Position numbers and translations under genes: made by a program. From Prochloraceae cyanobacterium (lineage in GTDB: Bacteria > Cyanobacteriota > Cyanobacteriia > Cyanobacteriales > JASJDA01): a DNA stretch of 46,795 nt. Each line of letters opens with the position of its first letter. Within the stretch, counting starts at the first letter, position 1. The DNA is taken from assembly GCA_030065755.1 (NCBI GenBank), contig JASJDA010000057.1:1-46795 (forward strand), read 5' to 3'. This document shows positions 21,499 to 35,720 of the stretch, one piece after another. The notes beneath the pieces were generated by a model. It ran no database searches and had not been told where the DNA came from. It saw only the letters and a program-made list of their open reading frames with translations.

Positions 21499-21926
21499 GT
21501 TTTTAAAGTAGATATTTCTGGTAAAATATAGGTCTAGAACAAAACTCGCAAAATCTATCAATGACGCTGGTTGGGCTCAATTTCTTACTATCCTCGCAAG
21601 CAAAGCTGAAAAAGCTGGCTTACTAACGGTAGCAGTTAAACCCCACGGAACTACTCAAGAATGTTCTTGTTGTGGTCAAACTGTCAAAAAAGCGGATGCG
21701 ACCCAGCTCGAATTCACTTCGAGCTGGAACGCGCACCAAGCCAGCGTTATCCGATAGATGGCATTCATGTCCTCACTGTAACTTTGAAGCAGATAGAGAT
21801 CTCAATGCCGCGATCAATATAAAAAACCGTGCGGTGGGGCATCCCGTGCGTAAAGTTCACCGAGCATCCGAAGGGTTACCTGGAGTTGGTGAGAAGCCTA
21901 CACTGTATACGCCAGTATCAGTGTAG
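21499..21926 (+). pseudogene. tnpB: tnpB (IS200/IS605 family) C-terminal remnant, frameshifted
   Basis: Only the last part of a TnpB RNA-guided nuclease remains. The frame containing KLAKSINDAGWAQFLTILA, VAVKPHGTTQECSCCGQTVKK (first zinc-knuckle half) is joined, after a 52-nt insertion at 21695-21746, to another frame with ALSDRWHSCPHCNFEADRDLN (second CxxC and the catalytic Asp of the RuvC fold) and the tail ending at TAG 21924-21926. Before KLA the frame is also broken (stops near 21522 and 21528). TnpA is absent. Non-functional as a nuclease unless supplied from elsewhere. Confidence 0.9.
21695..21746. mobile_element. 52-nt palindromic insertion inside tnpB
   Basis: Deleting 21695-21746 restores a continuous TnpB sequence ...TVKK-ALSDRWHSCP. 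The insert is flanked by AGCG at 21691-21694 and 21743-21746, a likely 4-bp target duplication. Its core is a perfect 10-bp hairpin CCAGCTCGAA (21703-21712), loop TTCAC, TTCGAGCTGG (21718-21727), with weaker pairing outside (TGCG...CGCA). Composition is richer in G+C than the surrounding DNA. Confidence 0.75.
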
Positions 21927-21927
21927 G
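21897..21927 (+). ncRNA. Right-end hairpin of the IS200/IS605 element (possible omega-RNA 3' part)
   Basis: CCTACACTG-TATAC-GCCA-GTAT-CAGTGTAGG folds into a 13-bp stem with a single bulge, overlapping the end of the tnpB frame and followed by AGTATGTCAC, a layout usual at IS605 right ends. In active elements this region supplies the TnpB guide RNA scaffold; here it is probably a fossil. Confidence 0.6.
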
Positions 21928-21937
21928 AGTATGTCAC

Positions 21938-21980
21938 AGCTTGTCTCCAACTTCGTTACTGTTGAGACAAGCTATTTTTT
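21938..21980 (+). terminator. Strong intrinsic terminator after the tnpB remnant
   Basis: AGCTTGTCTCCAAC (21938-21951) pairs with GTTGAGACAAGCT (21961-21973) apart from one bulged base, followed by ATTTTTT (21974-21980). It has the stem and T-run of a rho-independent terminator on the + strand and could end transcription from pntB or from the element. Confidence 0.75.
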
Positions 21981-25050: not shown

Positions 25051-25872
25051 TCATTGAATACTCATTCGTTTCAATCCTATTAATCCCAGCCAGCCAATGG
25101 CGCTGTAACCAATGGTTAGCATCAAACTAGTCAAGCTAATGCGCAGGAGGTTCGCCGTATTTCTAGTTTTTATTCGCTGGGTGGTTTCTAGCTTGGTAGC
25201 TCGCAATTGATTTTGCTGTTGCTCTAGCCTTTGTTTTAATCGATCTGGATCGGCTGCTAGGTTTTTCAAACTTTCCAATCGTTGTTTTTCTGCTTCTAGT
25301 TGCTGTCGCTGAGCTTGAGTTAAGGGTTGTCCTTGAAATTGACCGCTTTTTAGCACTTGGTTTACTTGTTGGATTCGATTGTCTACTTGTTGGGGAAAGT
25401 CTGGATTTTCTGATATGGCTTTGAGCCGATCGTATTGTTGTTGAAGACGACTTTCAACAGTGTCAGTTGTTTGCTCTATTCTTTGTATTTCGGCATTATC
25501 CCCAGTTTTGTTCATATTGATTAAGGACAAACCAGTGAAAAGCAAAAAAATTAGTCCTAAAAAGCTAGCAAACAAGAAAATCGGCAATCTCAAATCTGGA
25601 AATAAAGACTTTTTCCCTGAGTTGGAACTAGCAAAATAAATACTATCGATCCAATACCCTATTAGTAGCAAAGCTATTCCGATCGCGGGAACAATACCTC
25701 GATCGACAACGCTAACTATATATCTAATTTGCCATTGCACGCCATTTTGTTCGTTGAGTGCTTCAAAGGGAATTGCTAGAACGATCGCGTCGATCGCAAA
25801 ACCAAGTAGAAAAATAATCCCAATTATTTTGAGGCACAAAGATGTATATGGAGAAATATTCGAGCTATTCAT
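25051..25872 (-). CDS. HpsJ-like membrane protein
   Basis: A 273-residue protein with four membrane helices: about residues 10-32, 52-68, 92-115 and 245-268. Between the third and fourth lies a long coiled coil (about 125-235) rich in Gln, Arg and Glu, with RIQQVNQVLKSGQFQGQPLT and QRQQLEAEKQRLESLK. The layout and the start PYTSLCLKIIGIIFLLGFAIDA resemble the HpsJ family, described in Nostoc as needed for hormogonium polysaccharide; members also occur in unicellular strains with unknown role. TTGGAGG before the ATG is a good ribosome site. Confidence 0.7.
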   Translation of the reverse strand: MNSSNISPYTSLCLKIIGIIFLLGFAIDAIVLAIPFEALNEQNGVQWQIRYIVSVVDRGIVPAIGIALLLIGYWIDSIYFASSNSGKKSLFPDLRLPIFLFASFLGLIFLLFTGLSLINMNKTGDNAEIQRIEQTTDTVESRLQQQYDRLKAISENPDFPQQVDNRIQQVNQVLKSGQFQGQPLTQAQRQQLEAEKQRLESLKNLAADPDRLKQRLEQQQNQLRATKLETTQRIKTRNTANLLRISLTSLMLTIGYSAIGWLGLIGLKRMSIQ

Positions 25873-25939
25873 GAAAATACCTCCAAAGTTGGAAACTTCG
25901 CGTCTTTAGACCGAAGAAGAAAACGAGTAGGGGTTAAAA

Positions 25940-26045
25940 CCGCACTCCCCCCTGTCGGGGAAAGAAAAAACGCAGCCAATTTAATTTAAACTGATCAGCT
26001 AACTGAAGGTGAGGCACGAAGTCCCCCTATTTCAGTGGGGGGTGC
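25940..26045 (+). mobile_element. IS200/IS605-type end remnant with C/G hairpins
   Basis: Two short C-run/G-run stems occur: CCCC-TGT-CGGGG near 25948-25960, and TCCCCCTATTTCAGTGGGGGG near 26022-26042 followed by TGCTGACA. AAGTCCCC...GGGG-xxx-TGACA is the layout typical of IS605-family right ends in cyanobacteria. No tnpB coding remains directly in front of it. The 461-bp spacer otherwise contains the tnpB N-terminal fragment listed next. Confidence 0.4.
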
Positions 26046-26160
26046 TGACACTATTGGCAACTTCTCAATCTGCTTATCTTACCAAAATTTTGGGTTTAAA
26101 GCCTCGTCCTAGAAGGGCGACTTTATATTTTTCTGCTATATTATTATCGTAAGTGCAAAC

Positions 26161-26332
26161 GATAAAATAATTGTCTGCGAATCTAAACTAGAAGGAACAA
26201 GCGACCAATATGAACGGTTAGACCAAGCTGTTCGTACTGGTCGCTTTGTTGTATGACGATGCGCAGAGCGTATCTTCATACCCGCAACTACCTTTAATTC
26301 AAGCCCTTTTTACTTCGTCGAATTCACGTTTA
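26161..26332 (+). pseudogene. tnpB: tnpB N-terminal fragment
   Basis: The frame from 26161 reads KIIVCESKLEGTSDQYERLD then QAVRTGRFVV before TGA at 26254-26256, matching the usual start of cyanobacterial IS1341-type TnpB proteins. After a deletion, the stretch 26305-26332 reads SPFYFVEFTFT, and a near-identical stretch (QFYPVELTFK) appears again at 28201-28227. Everything between, about 1.9 kb, is unrelated and on the opposite strand. Confidence 0.7.
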
Positions 26333-26333
26333 C

Positions 26334-27905
26334 TTATATTTTTTTCAGTTTCAATAGGTTGGGAACAAAAGATTCGGTAAAACCTGCACTAACTGAAATA
26401 AATGCGACTCTCCAAATATCTGGATTTGAAGGATTTTCCAGAAAAAAGCTAGAAAATTCAGGGAATATATTTGCTTTGAGAGTAATATAAATAATCAGAC
26501 TGGATATTAATGCAATAAGAATCCTAGAAATTCCTGCTACACTATAATCATCATCAGGATCTATACTAACTTTATTAATTCCAGAAGCAATTGATAAAAA
26601 CCCTCCCAGGGTGCCACAGGAGATAACAATTAGAAAACTTATTGGAATATCAAACAATTTTATTATATCTAAAAAACTCTGCTGGAAAAGCATATGAATT
26701 GCGGTCAAAGAACCTATCATAAATATAATTAAACTTGTTTCATAGAAACTAGCAATTAAATACTGAAGTTTAGCATTATTAGCTCTGAAAATTTTTAAAC
26801 GTTGTTCGGCTTCTATTAGAACTTTTTCAGCATCTGTGTAAACTTTTTCAACATTTTCCAAATTATTTTCCCTTTCATCGTCTAAAGAGAATTTTATTCT
26901 TTTAGGAATTAAGCTATTTATTCTTTCAGCCATAGAAATTTTTTCACCATTTTCCAAATTATTTTCACTTTCATTTTCTAAAGATAATTTTATTCCTTTA
27001 GCAATCAAACGGTTTACTGTTTCTGCTTTACTAATTTCTTCAGGATTTTGAGATTCAATTTTTGCTAAAAGATAAAGAATTTTATTGACACGTCTTTTGT
27101 ATTTCTTTGATTCGTCTTTCTCATCGTTTACTAACCATTGAACTACTTTGCTAGTTCGATAAATAATATAATAATCAGTATAATGATAAATATCTAAAAT
27201 TAATTTTCCTTTATTATCTAGTCCCCCTATTTTATATTTTTTAAAAAATTCGTCATCACCTGTATAAGATATTCGCTTTAATACAGGTAATGTACTAGTT
27301 TTTTGATATAAAAGTGCCAATATTTCTTTAAAATTATTTATGAAAAGTCTAAATTTTGAGCTATAAAGTGGTACAGTTACCATCATAAATAGAACAAAGA
27401 TTACAGAAACTGTTAGTAGAGCTGTTTCTGGATTTACTTCAAAACTTTTTGGATTTAATTCTCTATATTGATATTTATTATTTTCTCTATATTTTTTTAT
27501 CCCCTTTTTTAAAATTTCAAGATAATCACTCTCTACTTCTGCTCGATCCTTTGATTCTGATTTAAAATCCTTTGGTGTCAAGGTAACAATAAAATTTGTG
27601 AGAGAGATTACTCGATTCTCTCCCTCTGACGAAATATCAAGTTTATCTAAATTTATCCCTTGACATCGAGATATATTTTTTAGTTCATTAGAAATTTGTT
27701 GTGCCCGCGCTGCTGCACTAAGTTTTTCTGTGGAATTCTTTATATAAAAAAGAACTTCCCCTCCCAATTTAACAGGGTAGCCAATATTAAGTTTATTAGG
27801 GTTTATACTATGTTGTTCCTGGGAATAGACTGATGGGCTTACCATTACTATAGATATAGTTAAAAGTAAGATTATTAAGCAATTCAAATACTTTTTAATA
27901 CGCAT
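26334..27905 (-). CDS. Chimeric membrane protein: MscS-like periplasmic domain plus four-helix C-terminus
   Basis: A 523-residue protein I cannot assign to one family. Residues 1-29 are a signal peptide (LLLTISIVMV, cut near VYSQE). Residues 40-160 (YPVKLGGEVLFYIKN, LSAAARAQQISNELKNI, EILKKGIKKYRENNK) resemble the outer domain of cyanobacterial MscS-type channels. One helix follows (about 163-185), then about 200 cytoplasmic residues with a duplicated 32-residue unit, then four helices to the end (GGFLSIASGINK, AGFTESFVPNLL). The MscS pore domain is absent. The gene is notably AT-rich, uses many AAA/ATA/TTA codons, and is enclosed by tnpB fragments, all signs of transfer. Confidence 0.75.
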   Translation of the reverse strand: MRIKKYLNCLIILLLTISIVMVSPSVYSQEQHSINPNKLNIGYPVKLGGEVLFYIKNSTEKLSAAARAQQISNELKNISRCQGINLDKLDISSEGENRVISLTNFIVTLTPKDFKSESKDRAEVESDYLEILKKGIKKYRENNKYQYRELNPKSFEVNPETALLTVSVIFVLFMMVTVPLYSSKFRLFINNFKEILALLYQKTSTLPVLKRISYTGDDEFFKKYKIGGLDNKGKLILDIYHYTDYYIIYRTSKVVQWLVNDEKDESKKYKRRVNKILYLLAKIESQNPEEISKAETVNRLIAKGIKLSLENESENNLENGEKISMAERINSLIPKRIKFSLDDERENNLENVEKVYTDAEKVLIEAEQRLKIFRANNAKLQYLIASFYETSLIIFMIGSLTAIHMLFQQSFLDIIKLFDIPISFLIVISCGTLGGFLSIASGINKVSIDPDDDYSVAGISRILIALISSLIIYITLKANIFPEFSSFFLENPSNPDIWRVAFISVSAGFTESFVPNLLKLKKI

Positions 27906-28035
27906 TATGTTTTTTTCTTAATAAACACTATGTTTTTTCTTTACTAATTTCTATTATTACTATCTTTTCTAAATTTGTAAGTTAGAAAAAGTGAGAAAAA
28001 GTATGGAAAAAAGTTTAAAAAAAGTATTTTTATAT

Positions 28036-28085
28036 CTGGGGGAGACCCCCAGAACCCCCTATTTTAAGGGAGAAAACCCCCTTAA
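28036..28085. repeat. C/G-rich palindromic intergenic repeat
   Basis: CTGGGGG-AGA-CCCCCAG (28036-28052) is a perfect 7-bp hairpin. TTAAGGG (28064-28070) pairs with CCCTTAA (28079-28085). Further CCCCCTTTTGGG follows. This type of repeat is common between cyanobacterial genes. The whole 27906-28451 spacer holds this repeat and the tnpB remnant below, plus an AT-rich upstream zone for the chimeric membrane gene. Confidence 0.65.
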
Positions 28086-28200
28086 ACCCCCTTTTGGGCA
28101 GTAGGGAAAGGAAATCTCCTTTTTTGATAGCAGCAATCTGTACTCCCAAAAAAAATTTGGTTGACACCATAACGAGTGAACTACTTTTATAAATAGTGCA

Positions 28201-28306
28201 GTTCTATCCCGTCGAACTCACGTTCAAGTAAGGGAACTCAAAGAAAGAGAAAGTCTAATCAATGATGGTTAGAATCCCCACGGCTTCAGGCTGGGAAAAA
28301 CGTCAA
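28201..28306 (+). mobile_element. tnpB 3' end and IS right-end remnant
   Basis: 28201-28227 encodes QFYPVELTFK, repeating the fragment at 26305-26332. About 45 bp later come TAGAATCCCCACGG-CTTCAGG-CTGGG and ACGTCAAC (28271-28306), a degraded version of the GAATCCCC...GGGGAxxGTCAA hairpin that closes many cyanobacterial IS605/IS1341 elements and their guide RNA. Together with 26161-26332 it brackets the chimeric membrane gene. Confidence 0.5.
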
Positions 28307-28451
28307 CAAAATTCTGCCTGTAAAAGTCATCGCCTTTTAGCCAACTAGTTCAAAACCCAAATTTTTTATTGCAACCTCAAGGCGATCGCTCCTATTGTCT
28401 TACGATCGAGCATTATTAAAGATTTTCTCGAATTATTTTAGGCTAGAACAA

Positions 28452-29174
28452 ATGCAAAAATTTGTTGAAGTTTTACCGGACAAACAACATCTAATAGCTC
28501 GAGCGCGAGCGCTCGTCGTTCAAAAAATCCAAGCAGCCATCGAACAGCGATCGCTCTGTACTATTGCTCTGGCTGGAGGAAGTACTCCCAAACCTTTGTA
28601 TGAAGCTCTCTCAGAGCAATCTTTACCCTGGGAAAAAATTCACGTATTTTGGGGGGACGAACGTTATGTAAGTCCCGACCATCCGGATAGCAATCAGAAA
28701 ATGGCGAGAGAAGCATGGTTAGATCGAGTCAATATTCCATCAACTAACATTCATCCTATGCCTACAGGTGCTGGCAAACCAGCTGTAGATACAGATACGC
28801 ACGAAACGGAATTGCGTACTTTTTTTGGCGTTGCTTCCCCAGAGTTCCCTGTCTTCGATATTATTTTATTGGGAATGGGAGACGACGGACATACTGCTTC
28901 TCTATTTCCTCATACCGAAGCTCTGGGAGTGCGCGATCGGCTAGTTACAGTGGGTAACAAAAGTGGTCAACCTCGACTTACTTTCACTGTTCCCTTAATT
29001 AATAATGCTCGCTGTGTGATGTTTCTGGTGGCTGGGGAAAATAAGCAATCGGCTCTTAAGGAAATTTTTGCTACTTCAGCAAATGAAAACAATTATCCAG
29101 CTCGTTTAATTGAACCTCAAGGAGAAATTTGGTGGTTATTAGATGAAGCTGCTGGTGCTGCAGTGAATAATTAA
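28452..29174 (+). CDS. pgl: 6-phosphogluconolactonase
   Basis: A 240-residue enzyme hydrolysing 6-phosphogluconolactone, the second step of the oxidative pentose phosphate pathway. Signatures of the DevB/SOL family are CTIALAGGSTPKPLYEAL, VFWGDERYVSPDHPDSN, LLGMGDDGHTASLFP and LTFTVPLINNA. The frame opens at TTG 28395, but the ATG at 28452 (MQKFVEVLPDKQH) gives the usual N-terminus. A HIP1 site precedes it. An intrinsic terminator follows at 29191. Confidence 0.93.
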   Translation: MQKFVEVLPDKQHLIARARALVVQKIQAAIEQRSLCTIALAGGSTPKPLYEALSEQSLPWEKIHVFWGDERYVSPDHPDSNQKMAREAWLDRVNIPSTNIHPMPTGAGKPAVDTDTHETELRTFFGVASPEFPVFDIILLGMGDDGHTASLFPHTEALGVRDRLVTVGNKSGQPRLTFTVPLINNARCVMFLVAGENKQSALKEIFATSANENNYPARLIEPQGEIWWLLDEAAGAAVNN

Positions 29175-32900: not shown

Positions 32901-35558
32901 GCGAAAAAACAGTCGGCTAAGACAATTTTTGTAGTTAATTGTGCTATCAAACATTGGAAAGATAGTATCAGAGACATATTACAACCTTTGCAAGAAGTTT
33001 ACTCGATTGCAATAGAAGCTGGAGATTTAGAATATGCTAGTTTATCTGCATTAACCTATACAACAGATCTTTGGTATACTGACAAAAATCTAAAAGACAT
33101 CTCTTTAGAAATGACTTATTATGGTCAAGTTATTGATAAATTTAAACAAAAACTATCTTTTGATACTTTGCAACTTTGCCATCAACCTATTTTAAATTTA
33201 TTAGGTAAAAATAAAAATCCGTGTATTTTAATTGGTGAAGCTTATGACGAAGAAAAAATGTTACCGCTTTACAAGCGAGAAAATAACAAAGTTTCAATTT
33301 ACTATCTATATTTTCATAAATTAATTGTTTGCTATATATTAAGCAACTATCCTGAAGCTGTTAAAAATGCAACAATAGTCAAAGATTACCCAAATGTAGT
33401 AGTCGGTGCTTTTGATATTCCGATATTTCATTTCTATGATTCTTTAGCTAGATTAGCAGTATATGGTTCTTCGTTAAAACCAGAACAAAAACGGATATTA
33501 TCAAGGACAAAAAACAATCAAAAGAAAATGAGAAAGTGGGCGCATTATGCTCCCACGAATCATTTAAATAAATATTATTTAGTAGAAGCAGAAAGGTATA
33601 GAGTACTGGGTAAAAAACTAGAAGCAATAGAATATTACGATCGCGCCATAGCCTTAGCTAAAGAAAATAAATTTATCCAAGAAGAAGCATTAGCAAACGA
33701 ACTAGCAGCCCAGTTTTATTTTGCTGACGGCAAAAATAAAATTGCTGAAGTTTATCTGAAAGATGCTCATTATTGTTATCTGAAATGGGGCGCAAAAGCT
33801 AAGGTAAAAGCTATGGAAGAACAGTATCCACAGTTGTTTTCTCAGAAATCTAAAAAACTGACAACACAAGTCACCGACACTTCGGGTAATAGCTCCAATA
33901 GAATCACTTCAGAGGATATAGATTTAGCAACTTTAATTAAAACTTCTCAAGCTTTATCTCAAGAGAAACAGTTAGAAAAATTATTAGAGATCGTCCTCAA
34001 ATTTACTATTGAAAATGTAGGAGCTAAAACTGGATTGCTTATTTTAGATAAAGGAGGAGAAATCTTTCTTGAAGCTGAGGTAAAAGCTGAGAGCGATTCC
34101 TCTATTATTTTGTCAGATACAAGTCTAAAACAGAGCGATCGTTTTTCCATTTCTCTTGTCAGCTATGTCCGAAGAACTAAAGAAACTGTCGTTTTAAGTA
34201 ATGCTAGCTCTGAGGGCATCTTTATTAACGATCCTTACATTGTTAAAAATCAGACAAAATCGGTTTTATGTTTGCCATTGCTCGGACAAGGAGAGTTAAT
34301 TGGAGTAATTTATCTAGAAAATAATTTAACTGTTGGTGCTTTTAATGAGGAGCGACTGGAAATATTAAAACTAATTTCTTCTCAAGCAGCTATTGCGATC
34401 GAAAATGCTCTATTGAGAAACAAAGAAGGCGATCGAGTCTATGAATATCAAGTCGGAGGTTGTTTGACCCCAGATTCCCCCACTTATGTAATTCGACAAG
34501 CCGATCGAGACCTATATAGCGCTCTAAAAACAGGAGATTTTTGTTACGTATTGAATGCACGACAAATGGGTAAATCTAGCTTGCGCGTGCAGATGATGAA
34601 TAAGTTACGATCGGAAGACATCGCTTGTGCTGCTGTAGATCTAACTGTAATTGGCAATCAAAATATAAGCTTGGAGCAATGGTATTTCGGTTTAATTGAC
34701 GAATTGGTATGTCAATTTCAACTCTCCAAAAAATTTGACTGCGAAAGTTGGTGGGAAAGTAAGGAGCGTTTTTCTCCAGTACAAAAATTTAGTAAATTTA
34801 TCAAACAAGTTTTGCTAGCCGAAATTGACGATCGAATTGTCATATTTATCGACGAAATTGACAGCATATTGAGCTTAGACTTGAATATGGATGACTTTTT
34901 TGCTCTGATTCGCTCCTTCTATAACCAACGCGCTGACTACCCTAAATATAAACGACTCACTTTTGTACTGCTAGGAGTAGCGAGTCCGTTTAGTTTAATT
35001 GAAAATAAGGACTGTACTCCCTTTAATATCGGTCGAGCGATCGCTCTTTCTGGTTTTCAACTCCACGAAATACAACCTTTAGCTGAAGGGTTAAAACAAA
35101 AATATTCCCATCCTCAAATTTTGCTCGAAGAAGTATTAGCTTGGACGGGAGGACAACCCTTTCTGACTCAAAAACTTTGTAATTTGATTCTCAATTCCCA
35201 AACGAAGATAACAGAAGGGAAAGAAGCAGAGTGGGTAGAAAAGCTAGTGGAAGAGTCTATCGTTAACAATTGGGAATTTCAGGACGAACCTCAACATTTG
35301 CGGACAATACGCGATCGACTCCTCAGCAAACAATCCTCTTCTCTTCAATTACTGGAACTATATCAGCAAATTTTACACCAAGGAGAAATTGCAGCGGATG
35401 GTTCAAAAGAAACTATGGAGTTGCTTCTGTCTGGGTTAGTATTTCAGTACCTAGGAAAAATCAAAGTTTACAACCCTATCTACAAAGCTGTCTTTAACAG
35501 TAGTTGGGTAGATGGGGAGAGTGGGGAGCAGGGGAGCAGGGGAGCAGGGGTCCAATGA
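29910..35558 (+). CDS. Giant Ser/Thr kinase-AAA-GAF protein with C-terminal AAA_35-like ATPase
   Basis: A 1882-residue multidomain signalling protein of the PknK/HstK type. Residues 7-265 are a Ser/Thr kinase: Lys44 in VILKLL, catalytic loop HKDINPSN (134-141), DFG (155-157), and GTLAYISPEQTGR. Residues about 310-600 are an AAA/STAND ATPase (GYSGIGKSAL near 345; Walker B IFLDDLQWAD). A long helical TPR-like stretch follows (about 700-1330), then a GAF domain (about 1337-1503). Relatives usually end in a histidine kinase; here the end (about 1510-1860) is an AAA_35-like domain (GGCLTPDSPTYVIRQADRDL, P-loop NARQMGKSS, IFIDEID, LTWTGGQPFLTQ-like). The last residues (GEQGSRGAGVQ) are encoded by a G-rich repeat. 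Confidence 0.92.
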   Translation: MIALAGYQIFAQIYESSNSLVYRGLQEANALQSNVFRNRSVILKLLKQDFPSTEELTRYKQEYEITRNLNVENAIAAYELKEYQNTLVITFEDFGGTSLDILLEEQKFTIKEFLEIAIKITSGLEAIHAANIIHKDINPSNIVLNPETGQVKIIDFGISTVLPKENPTLKNPNILEGTLAYISPEQTGRIDCSLDYRTDFYSLGATFYELLTGKRPFTSIELLELVHSHIALIPIPPLELQRDIPQAISDIVMKLMAKNPADRYQSAWGIKADLQTCLNQLESKEKTASFQLATQDISHRFQIKQKLYGREKEVDRLLKGFDRMRRVEGAGEEGKSRREMILVSGYSGIGKSALVRKIYKPITEAKGYFIAGKFDQYQRDIPYSAIVQAFGELVEYLLVETELSLKQWRETILDFLGVNAQLIIDVIPKLELIIGKQPEVPSLPAKESENRFNIVFQNFIKVFSQREHPLVIFLDDLQWADSASLRLMQLIMRDSDLEYLFLIGAYRDNEVNPVHPLMLAVDEIEKAGIIVDRILLSPLKLSEVECIIVDSLNCTEDRAKLLAELVLAKTDGNPFFINEFLRSLYRENLIYFDRQYRIWQWDLEEIKAKDITDNVVELLSLGIKKLKSETQQILQLAACIGDRFEIETLAIVAANTPQQTALLLREAIAAGLVYPLSDAYKSIELDVSQHESELKVEYKFVHDRVQQAAYSLIPTEQKPVLHGKIGQLLLQNIPSDQQEQKIFDIVNQLNLGRELISDRQQKNELAKLNLIAGKKARSSAANKTAFKYLKLGVTLLDEHSWNNLYDLTLELYITAAEAAYLSGNFVAMEKLVDRVLQKAKILLDKVSVYEVKIQACIAQNKLLEAIKIALRVLKLLGVKLPHNPNKFNILLGIVSTKLTLAGKQIENLIDLPLMRNPYKLAAMRILSNINAVAYIALPDLLPLIIFKQLHLSIKYGNSSLSAFAYATYGVILCRILGEINSGYQFGQVALTLLDRFNAKKQSAKTIFVVNCAIKHWKDSIRDILQPLQEVYSIAIEAGDLEYASLSALTYTTDLWYTDKNLKDISLEMTYYGQVIDKFKQKLSFDTLQLCHQPILNLLGKNKNPCILIGEAYDEEKMLPLYKRENNKVSIYYLYFHKLIVCYILSNYPEAVKNATIVKDYPNVVVGAFDIPIFHFYDSLARLAVYGSSLKPEQKRILSRTKNNQKKMRKWAHYAPTNHLNKYYLVEAERYRVLGKKLEAIEYYDRAIALAKENKFIQEEALANELAAQFYFADGKNKIAEVYLKDAHYCYLKWGAKAKVKAMEEQYPQLFSQKSKKLTTQVTDTSGNSSNRITSEDIDLATLIKTSQALSQEKQLEKLLEIVLKFTIENVGAKTGLLILDKGGEIFLEAEVKAESDSSIILSDTSLKQSDRFSISLVSYVRRTKETVVLSNASSEGIFINDPYIVKNQTKSVLCLPLLGQGELIGVIYLENNLTVGAFNEERLEILKLISSQAAIAIENALLRNKEGDRVYEYQVGGCLTPDSPTYVIRQADRDLYSALKTGDFCYVLNARQMGKSSLRVQMMNKLRSEDIACAAVDLTVIGNQNISLEQWYFGLIDELVCQFQLSKKFDCESWWESKERFSPVQKFSKFIKQVLLAEIDDRIVIFIDEIDSILSLDLNMDDFFALIRSFYNQRADYPKYKRLTFVLLGVASPFSLIENKDCTPFNIGRAIALSGFQLHEIQPLAEGLKQKYSHPQILLEEVLAWTGGQPFLTQKLCNLILNSQTKITEGKEAEWVEKLVEESIVNNWEFQDEPQHLRTIRDRLLSKQSSSLQLLELYQQILHQGEIAADGSKETMELLLSGLVFQYLGKIKVYNPIYKAVFNSSWVDGESGEQGSRGAGVQ

Positions 35559-35562
35559 TTGC

Positions 35563-35647
35563 TATTTTTAATGAGGAACCCTTCTATAGCGATAACCTAT
35601 CCCACCAACCGATAACTAAAAGTAAAAAGGGTTCCTCATTAAAAATA
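35563..35647. repeat. 21-bp perfect inverted repeat after the kinase gene
   Basis: ATTTTTAATGAGGAACCCTT (35564-35583) is exactly complementary to 35627-35646, with one more T-A pair outside; the loop is 43 nt and holds GATAAC twice. Five bases after the kinase stop, so it could act as a terminator, though length and perfect pairing are more like a small palindromic element. Confidence 0.75.
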
Positions 35648-35659
35648 AATACATCCTTC

Positions 35660-35720
35660 GGGGAGCAGGGGGAGTAGAGGACAATAACAAATAGCAAACA
35701 GCAAACAGCAAATAGCAAAC
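35660..35720. repeat. Composite short tandem repeat, second copy
   Basis: GGGGAGCAGGGGGAGTAG followed by AATAACAAATAGCAAACAGC units, the same composite as at 7168-7270. The G-rich GGGGAGCA units also occur inside the kinase 3' end (35508-35549). Confidence 0.7.

Follow-up and report, generated by a model that had tools for sequence, protein, structure and literature searches.

A membrane-protein gene in a Prochloraceae cyanobacterium lies within what is probably a nest of dead insertion sequences: a segment bounded by IS982-family ends, with the gene, would have entered a tnpB element, and deletions would have followed. In the window (the whole 46,795-nucleotide stretch of DNA analysed), we found both outer ends of one tnpB-only IS605-type element on the + strand (26083-28306). 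Inside this tnpB remnant, about 1.1 kb of tnpB is gone, and 1.97 kb of foreign DNA stands in its place. The locus is a palimpsest built from transposons of known families; the gene in it is an insert specific to this lineage. The pieces are as follows.

26079-26082, + strand: TTAC, presumed IS608-like target flank, left of the element; TTACC also precedes copies C205, C212, C332 and C429
26083-26250, + strand: left end and tnpB 5' part of the tnpB-only IS605-type element, hairpin at about 26102-26123; 92% to intact copy C205, 84-85% to three others
26251-26330, + strand: last 80 bp of an IS982-family element, terminal repeat facing right, truncated within the subterminal hairpin; 94% to C250 and C244, longer copies containing IS982 transposase pieces
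26316-26330, + strand: IS982-type terminal repeat CGTCGAATTCACGTT, one base off consensus; from motif search and comparison with IS982-type ends
26334-27905, - strand: gene for a 523-aa membrane protein with MscS-type N-terminal domain and orphan membrane C-terminus, 28% GC; from the open reading frame and homology searches
27906-28209, no strand assigned: region upstream of the 523-aa gene, with two short dispersed intergenic repeats (about 27935-28027 and 28045-28115)
28210-28224, + strand: consensus IS982-type terminal repeat CGTCGAACTCACGTT, facing right and adjoining tnpB; from motif and junction comparison
28224-28306, + strand: last 13 tnpB codons and right end, terminating in GTCAA, base 28224 being common with the terminal repeat; 94% to C205 over 28224-28307, 89-93% to C212, C332 and C429

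An Rfam scan of 25800-28500, with E values up to 1, gave zero matches.

The outer pieces derive from a tnpB element with intact copies in the genome

An earlier note on this DNA had described a tnpB N-terminus and a right-end hairpin piece on the + strand with a minus-strand gene between them, and all three descriptions proved correct. The left piece (26079-26250) matches four same-genome tnpB elements at 84-92%: C205 at 92.4%, and C212, C332 and C429 at 84-85% (at most 84.9%). Read in frame, it gives KIIVCESKLEGTSDQYERLDQAVRTGRFVV and then a stop, with about 34 of the first codons kept; at the tnpB start position, ATG is replaced by ATA, as in C205, the other copies having ATG. The right piece (28224-28307) comprises the last tnpB codons (SSKGTQRKRKSNQ*; 13 codons and the stop) and the right-end hairpin. 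It is again closest to C205 (94.0%), followed by C212 at 93% (copies other than C205 reach at most 92.7%), C332 at 90% and C429 at 89%, with further right ends lower. The right-end query found 12 matches in its own genome, itself included, and zero in the genome of the genus mate.

These four copies, C205, C212, C332 and C429, could be aligned at both ends, which supplies the intact element that the earlier note had asked for. The intact elements (n = 4) are 1351-1471 bp long; TnpB is 422 aa in C212 and 420 aa in C205. Between the matched parts they contain 1095, 1144, 1146 and 1212 bp, versus 1.97 kb of other DNA in the window. All four have TTACC before the left end and GTCAA at the right end, the same as in the window. 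We take TTAC on the left and TCAA on the right to correspond to the cleavage sites of IS608, of which TTAC is presumably also the target.

The window element therefore has the left and right ends common to the intact genome copies of the tnpB-only IS605-type (IS1341-like) family, but between them, in place of a tnpB gene, only the first 34 or so codons (without the ATG) and the last 13. We conclude that it is a remnant of this family and no longer a member. It resembles elements such as C205 in its left end, tnpB start, tnpB tail, right-end hairpin, TTAC flank and GTCAA tip, and differs from them in the absence of approximately 1.1 kb of tnpB, in the foreign DNA found instead, and in its right hairpin. 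That hairpin is eroded: its folding energy is -3.1 kcal/mol, versus -7.8 in C205, and 109 of 200 shuffles reach an equally good fold. The left hairpin is weaker than in C205 (-5.7 versus -9.2 kcal/mol) yet still folds, with 10 of 200 shuffles doing as well.

Could the gene simply happen to lie between two separate tnpB fossils in the same orientation, one without its right part and the other without its left? Such elements abound in the genome (127 TnpB-domain matches), with partial copies among them, and the one C205-private site of the right piece is absent from the window. Against this reading, which would need one extra insertion, both pieces are closest to the same copy, and the recognition ends, TTAC on the left and GTCAA on the right, are both kept as in intact copies; on the left, the window has three of the five C205-private sites, the ATG to ATA change included. 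We consider two fossils unlikely, and favour nesting within a single element because C205 is the closest intact copy for the left and the right tnpB piece alike.

It had also been suggested that the unit is an IS605-type element carrying cargo. Only as a static picture is this accurate. A working non-autonomous element, with the membrane gene in place of tnpB and moved in trans by Y1 transposases, could draw on the retention of both ends with TTAC and GTCAA, the left hairpin that still folds, the 16 Y1 transposase matches in the genome, and the intact 523-codon frame of the gene. However, the gene is single-copy in the genome, the right hairpin has weakened to the level of shuffled sequence, IS982 debris lies at both inner junctions, and there is no sign that the unit moved. 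Such an element is thus very improbable, and that the 2.2-kb unit is still mobilisable in this way is, if anything, harder to accept; beyond the retained ends, nothing speaks in favour of a moving cargo element.

Across the whole genome (G000, 8.5 Mb), the 127 TnpB-domain matches stand against 16 Y1 transposase matches, several of them partial; tnpB-only elements dominate. Another decayed tnpB lies in the window at 21545-21938, with TnpB-domain matches at 21572-21688 and 21732-21821 in different frames and repeat similarity to about 21938.

The repeats at the inner junctions match IS982-family ends

The sequence CGTCGAA(T/C)TCACGTT occurs, as previously reported, on both sides of the gene (26316-26330 and 28210-28224), in both cases on the + strand. 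These are its sole two matches in the 46,795 bases at up to two mismatches; shuffled sequence gave a mean of 0.09 per shuffle, and two matches were reached in 1 of 100 shuffles. At the left junction, tnpB similarity ends at 26250, and 26251-26330, the first repeat copy included, is not tnpB: it matches dispersed sequence (C250 and C244 at 94%, C51 at 89%, C24 at 86%), with shorter or weaker matches elsewhere in its own genome and in the genus mate. Fuller IS982-type copies have a palindrome, a GC-rich hairpin and the tip CGTCGAACTCACGTT. In one copy from the genus mate (L031), the tip is present at both ends, inverted, 1.3 kb apart, and frames within it match the IS982 transposase profile NF033520 (E values of 1.5e-30 and 1.9e-25), as does a frame in L030 from the window's own genome (E value of 1.8e-28); these matches are broken pieces, each under the family cut-off of 130 bits. 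These comparisons identify the motif as the terminal inverted repeat of an IS982-family element, of which this genome and the genus mate both have many copies.

The family is described in PMC7335449 as having inverted repeats that start with AC and direct repeats of variable length. The window pieces resemble it (NF033520; PMC7335449) in the terminal repeat and in the subterminal hairpin of the transposase-encoding copies, and the tip ACGTGAGTTCGACG starts with the conserved AC. They are unlike IS982 elements in that an 80-bp end and a 15-bp tip are left, in direct orientation and without a transposase. The fragments share terminal sequence with the ends of IS982-encoding copies, which places their origin in this family. 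A transposase between inverted terminal repeats is not what the window has: both ends point the same way, and the stretch separating them encodes none.

The first tip is the end of the 80-bp IS982 piece and lies 3 bases before the stop of the 523-aa gene. The second (28210-28224) is an exact match to the consensus, and tnpB resumes at its last base. Because both tips face right, a single IS982 element cannot have had them as its two ends. Weak likeness to the IS982 right ends of the same genome (n = 10) is seen in the 40 bases that precede the second tip: for the best, 17 of 500 shuffles score as high, and for four ends more than 300 of 500 do.

What stands of the earlier interpretation is that a foreign gene replaces the body of one tnpB element and that the repeats mark the junctions; that they are part of tnpB does not. 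If short repeats native to tnpB had recombined and the gene had thereby replaced the tnpB body, a repeat on both sides of the gene would be explained, but this is barely conceivable, as the motif belongs to IS982-type elements and is absent from the right junction of five displayed tnpB copies, which have other sequence there, while at the left junction four displayed copies carry on with tnpB sequence.

The IS982-type copies L030, L032, L036, L038, L040 and L042 carry an inverted repeat, ACTAAAC-C-GTTTAGT, roughly 100 bp in from their right end, with variants such as ACTAGACCGTCTAGT in the genus mate; it looks like a candidate regulator or transposase binding site. Elsewhere in the window, 35544-35663 holds a short repeat common to L005, L008, L030 and L117, at and past the end of a gene for an 1882-aa kinase-like protein.

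The inserted gene encodes a membrane protein with an MscS-type N-terminal domain

The minus-strand gene (26334-27905) is an open frame of 523 codons. Its GC content is 28% (17% at third positions), versus 36-47% in seven neighbouring genes. In a first, smaller search the protein found matches in 9 of 60 genomes, its own included; of 386 cyanobacterial genomes, 26 gave a match to the full protein, again including its own, and all non-self matches fall within residues 2-197. In parts of this span, the protein is 23-37% identical to the N-terminus of MscS-type channels, and six aligned N-termini have six invariant columns. Of the homologues tested against Pfam, three have MscS beta and C-terminal domains; Pfam gave nothing for the fourth, which is a stand-alone protein of ~172 aa.

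The 523-aa protein itself lacks a match to the beta domain or C-terminal domain (PF00924, PF21082) that those three homologues carry, and its C-terminal 141 aa matched only itself, with nothing in the other 385 of the 386 cyanobacterial genomes. It thus resembles cyanobacterial MscS-type channels in its N-terminal domain and is unlike them in that no MscS pore domain was found and the C-terminal 141 aa have no match elsewhere. Its sole Pfam match, to DUF2207_C, was sub-threshold (E value of 0.0022; 18.2 bits, cut-off 33); NCBIfam gave one weak match, OPT_sfam, far below cut-off (E value of 0.014); PADLOC gave nothing; the PDB sequences gave one match (E value of 0.48); the scans of named genomes and of viruses gave no relative; and among plasmids the one record found was a Stanieria MscS gene, with 27% over the N-terminus. 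AlphaFold, run on the single sequence, gave a mean pLDDT of 38.6, and the model was set aside.

These data indicate that the gene product consists of an MscS-type N-terminal domain joined to an orphan membrane part. From the N-terminal domain alone, one might guess at a sensor of membrane tension or envelope stress. Within the gene, 26840-27049 is a 96-bp (32-codon) tandem duplication of 2.2 copies with 80% matches, and the frame is kept.

The gene is absent from this position in relatives

The block lies between two divergent genes, orf273 (25051-25872, - strand) and the 6-phosphogluconolactonase gene pgl (28395-29174, + strand). Searches with both flanking proteins covered 29 relatives; in 13 of the 29, the two genes are divergent neighbours on one contig, and in the other 16 the flank matches are apart, on different contigs, or orf273 has no match. 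The spacing between flank matches is 40-392 bp in ten relatives, and 1051, 1172 and 2609 bp in G015, G003 and G005, respectively. None of the 13 relatives with the same flanking pair has the 523-aa gene between the flanks, and the whole protein was not found in nine fetched regions and four other loci of relatives; protein matches in G008, G011, G019 and G028 sit elsewhere, away from the flanking pair. The case that the earlier note held would count against a replaced tnpB body, the gene at the same place in relatives without tnpB pieces, did not occur. Alignment of the intergenic DNA of those thirteen regions to the window was no better than chance-level pieces, this DNA being too diverged for a base-level view of the empty site.

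The genus mate G001 keeps the order tab2-nusB-duf502-pgl, with about 0.6 kb between duf502 and pgl, and has neither orf273 nor the 523-aa gene. Because the gene is absent at this place in the relatives and in G001, the block would most simply be a gain in the window's lineage.

Immediately to the left of the tnpB element, 25873-26053 is a further dispersed repeat, two parts of which match C94 (94% and 89%) and C66. The parts are more widely spaced in those copies, which suggests that the repeat is some other element in shortened form.

Proposed history of the locus

We propose that a C205-like tnpB-only (IS1341-like) IS605-type element inserted after TTAC, between the divergent conserved orf273 and 6-phosphogluconolactonase genes, and that DNA with IS982-family ends and the membrane-protein gene then entered this element near the 3' end of tnpB. 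In its simplest form, the incoming DNA would have been a segment between two same-orientation IS982 copies, resembling a composite transposon, with its outer right end near the tnpB 3' end. One deletion, starting near tnpB codon 34 and reaching into the first IS982 copy so that the last 80 bp of its right end were left, would have removed ~1.1 kb of tnpB; another would have taken most of the second IS982 copy, sparing its 15-bp tip. Of what defines a composite transposon, the right outer tip is present, and the left outer end and target duplication are lost; because of this loss, the composite form is one that we infer, as we do the order of events and the deletions. Against the nesting reading stand the shortness of the right IS982 tip (15 bp), the weak likeness before it, the lost outer-left end and target duplication, the absence of the one C205-private site on the right, and the divergence of the intergenic DNA in relatives.

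The same traces as those of deletion after insertion would be expected if the chromosome had been rearranged between two IS982 copies, one within tnpB and one next to the gene; the evidence is compatible with both routes.

Implications

The locus is ordinary transposon debris, and represents neither a new transposon type nor a new cargo-carrying element. Our literature searches on IS605 with a passenger gene, tnpB and MITE, and on IS982 with tnpB and MITE in cyanobacteria, found no paper, which is no claim that nothing of the kind is in print. The locus illustrates that, when raw sequence is read by itself, the tips of one insertion sequence may be taken for repeats internal to another. It further provides an example of a lineage-specific membrane gene, in which an MscS-type N-terminal domain and an orphan membrane part are joined, lodged in transposon debris between two conserved cyanobacterial genes.
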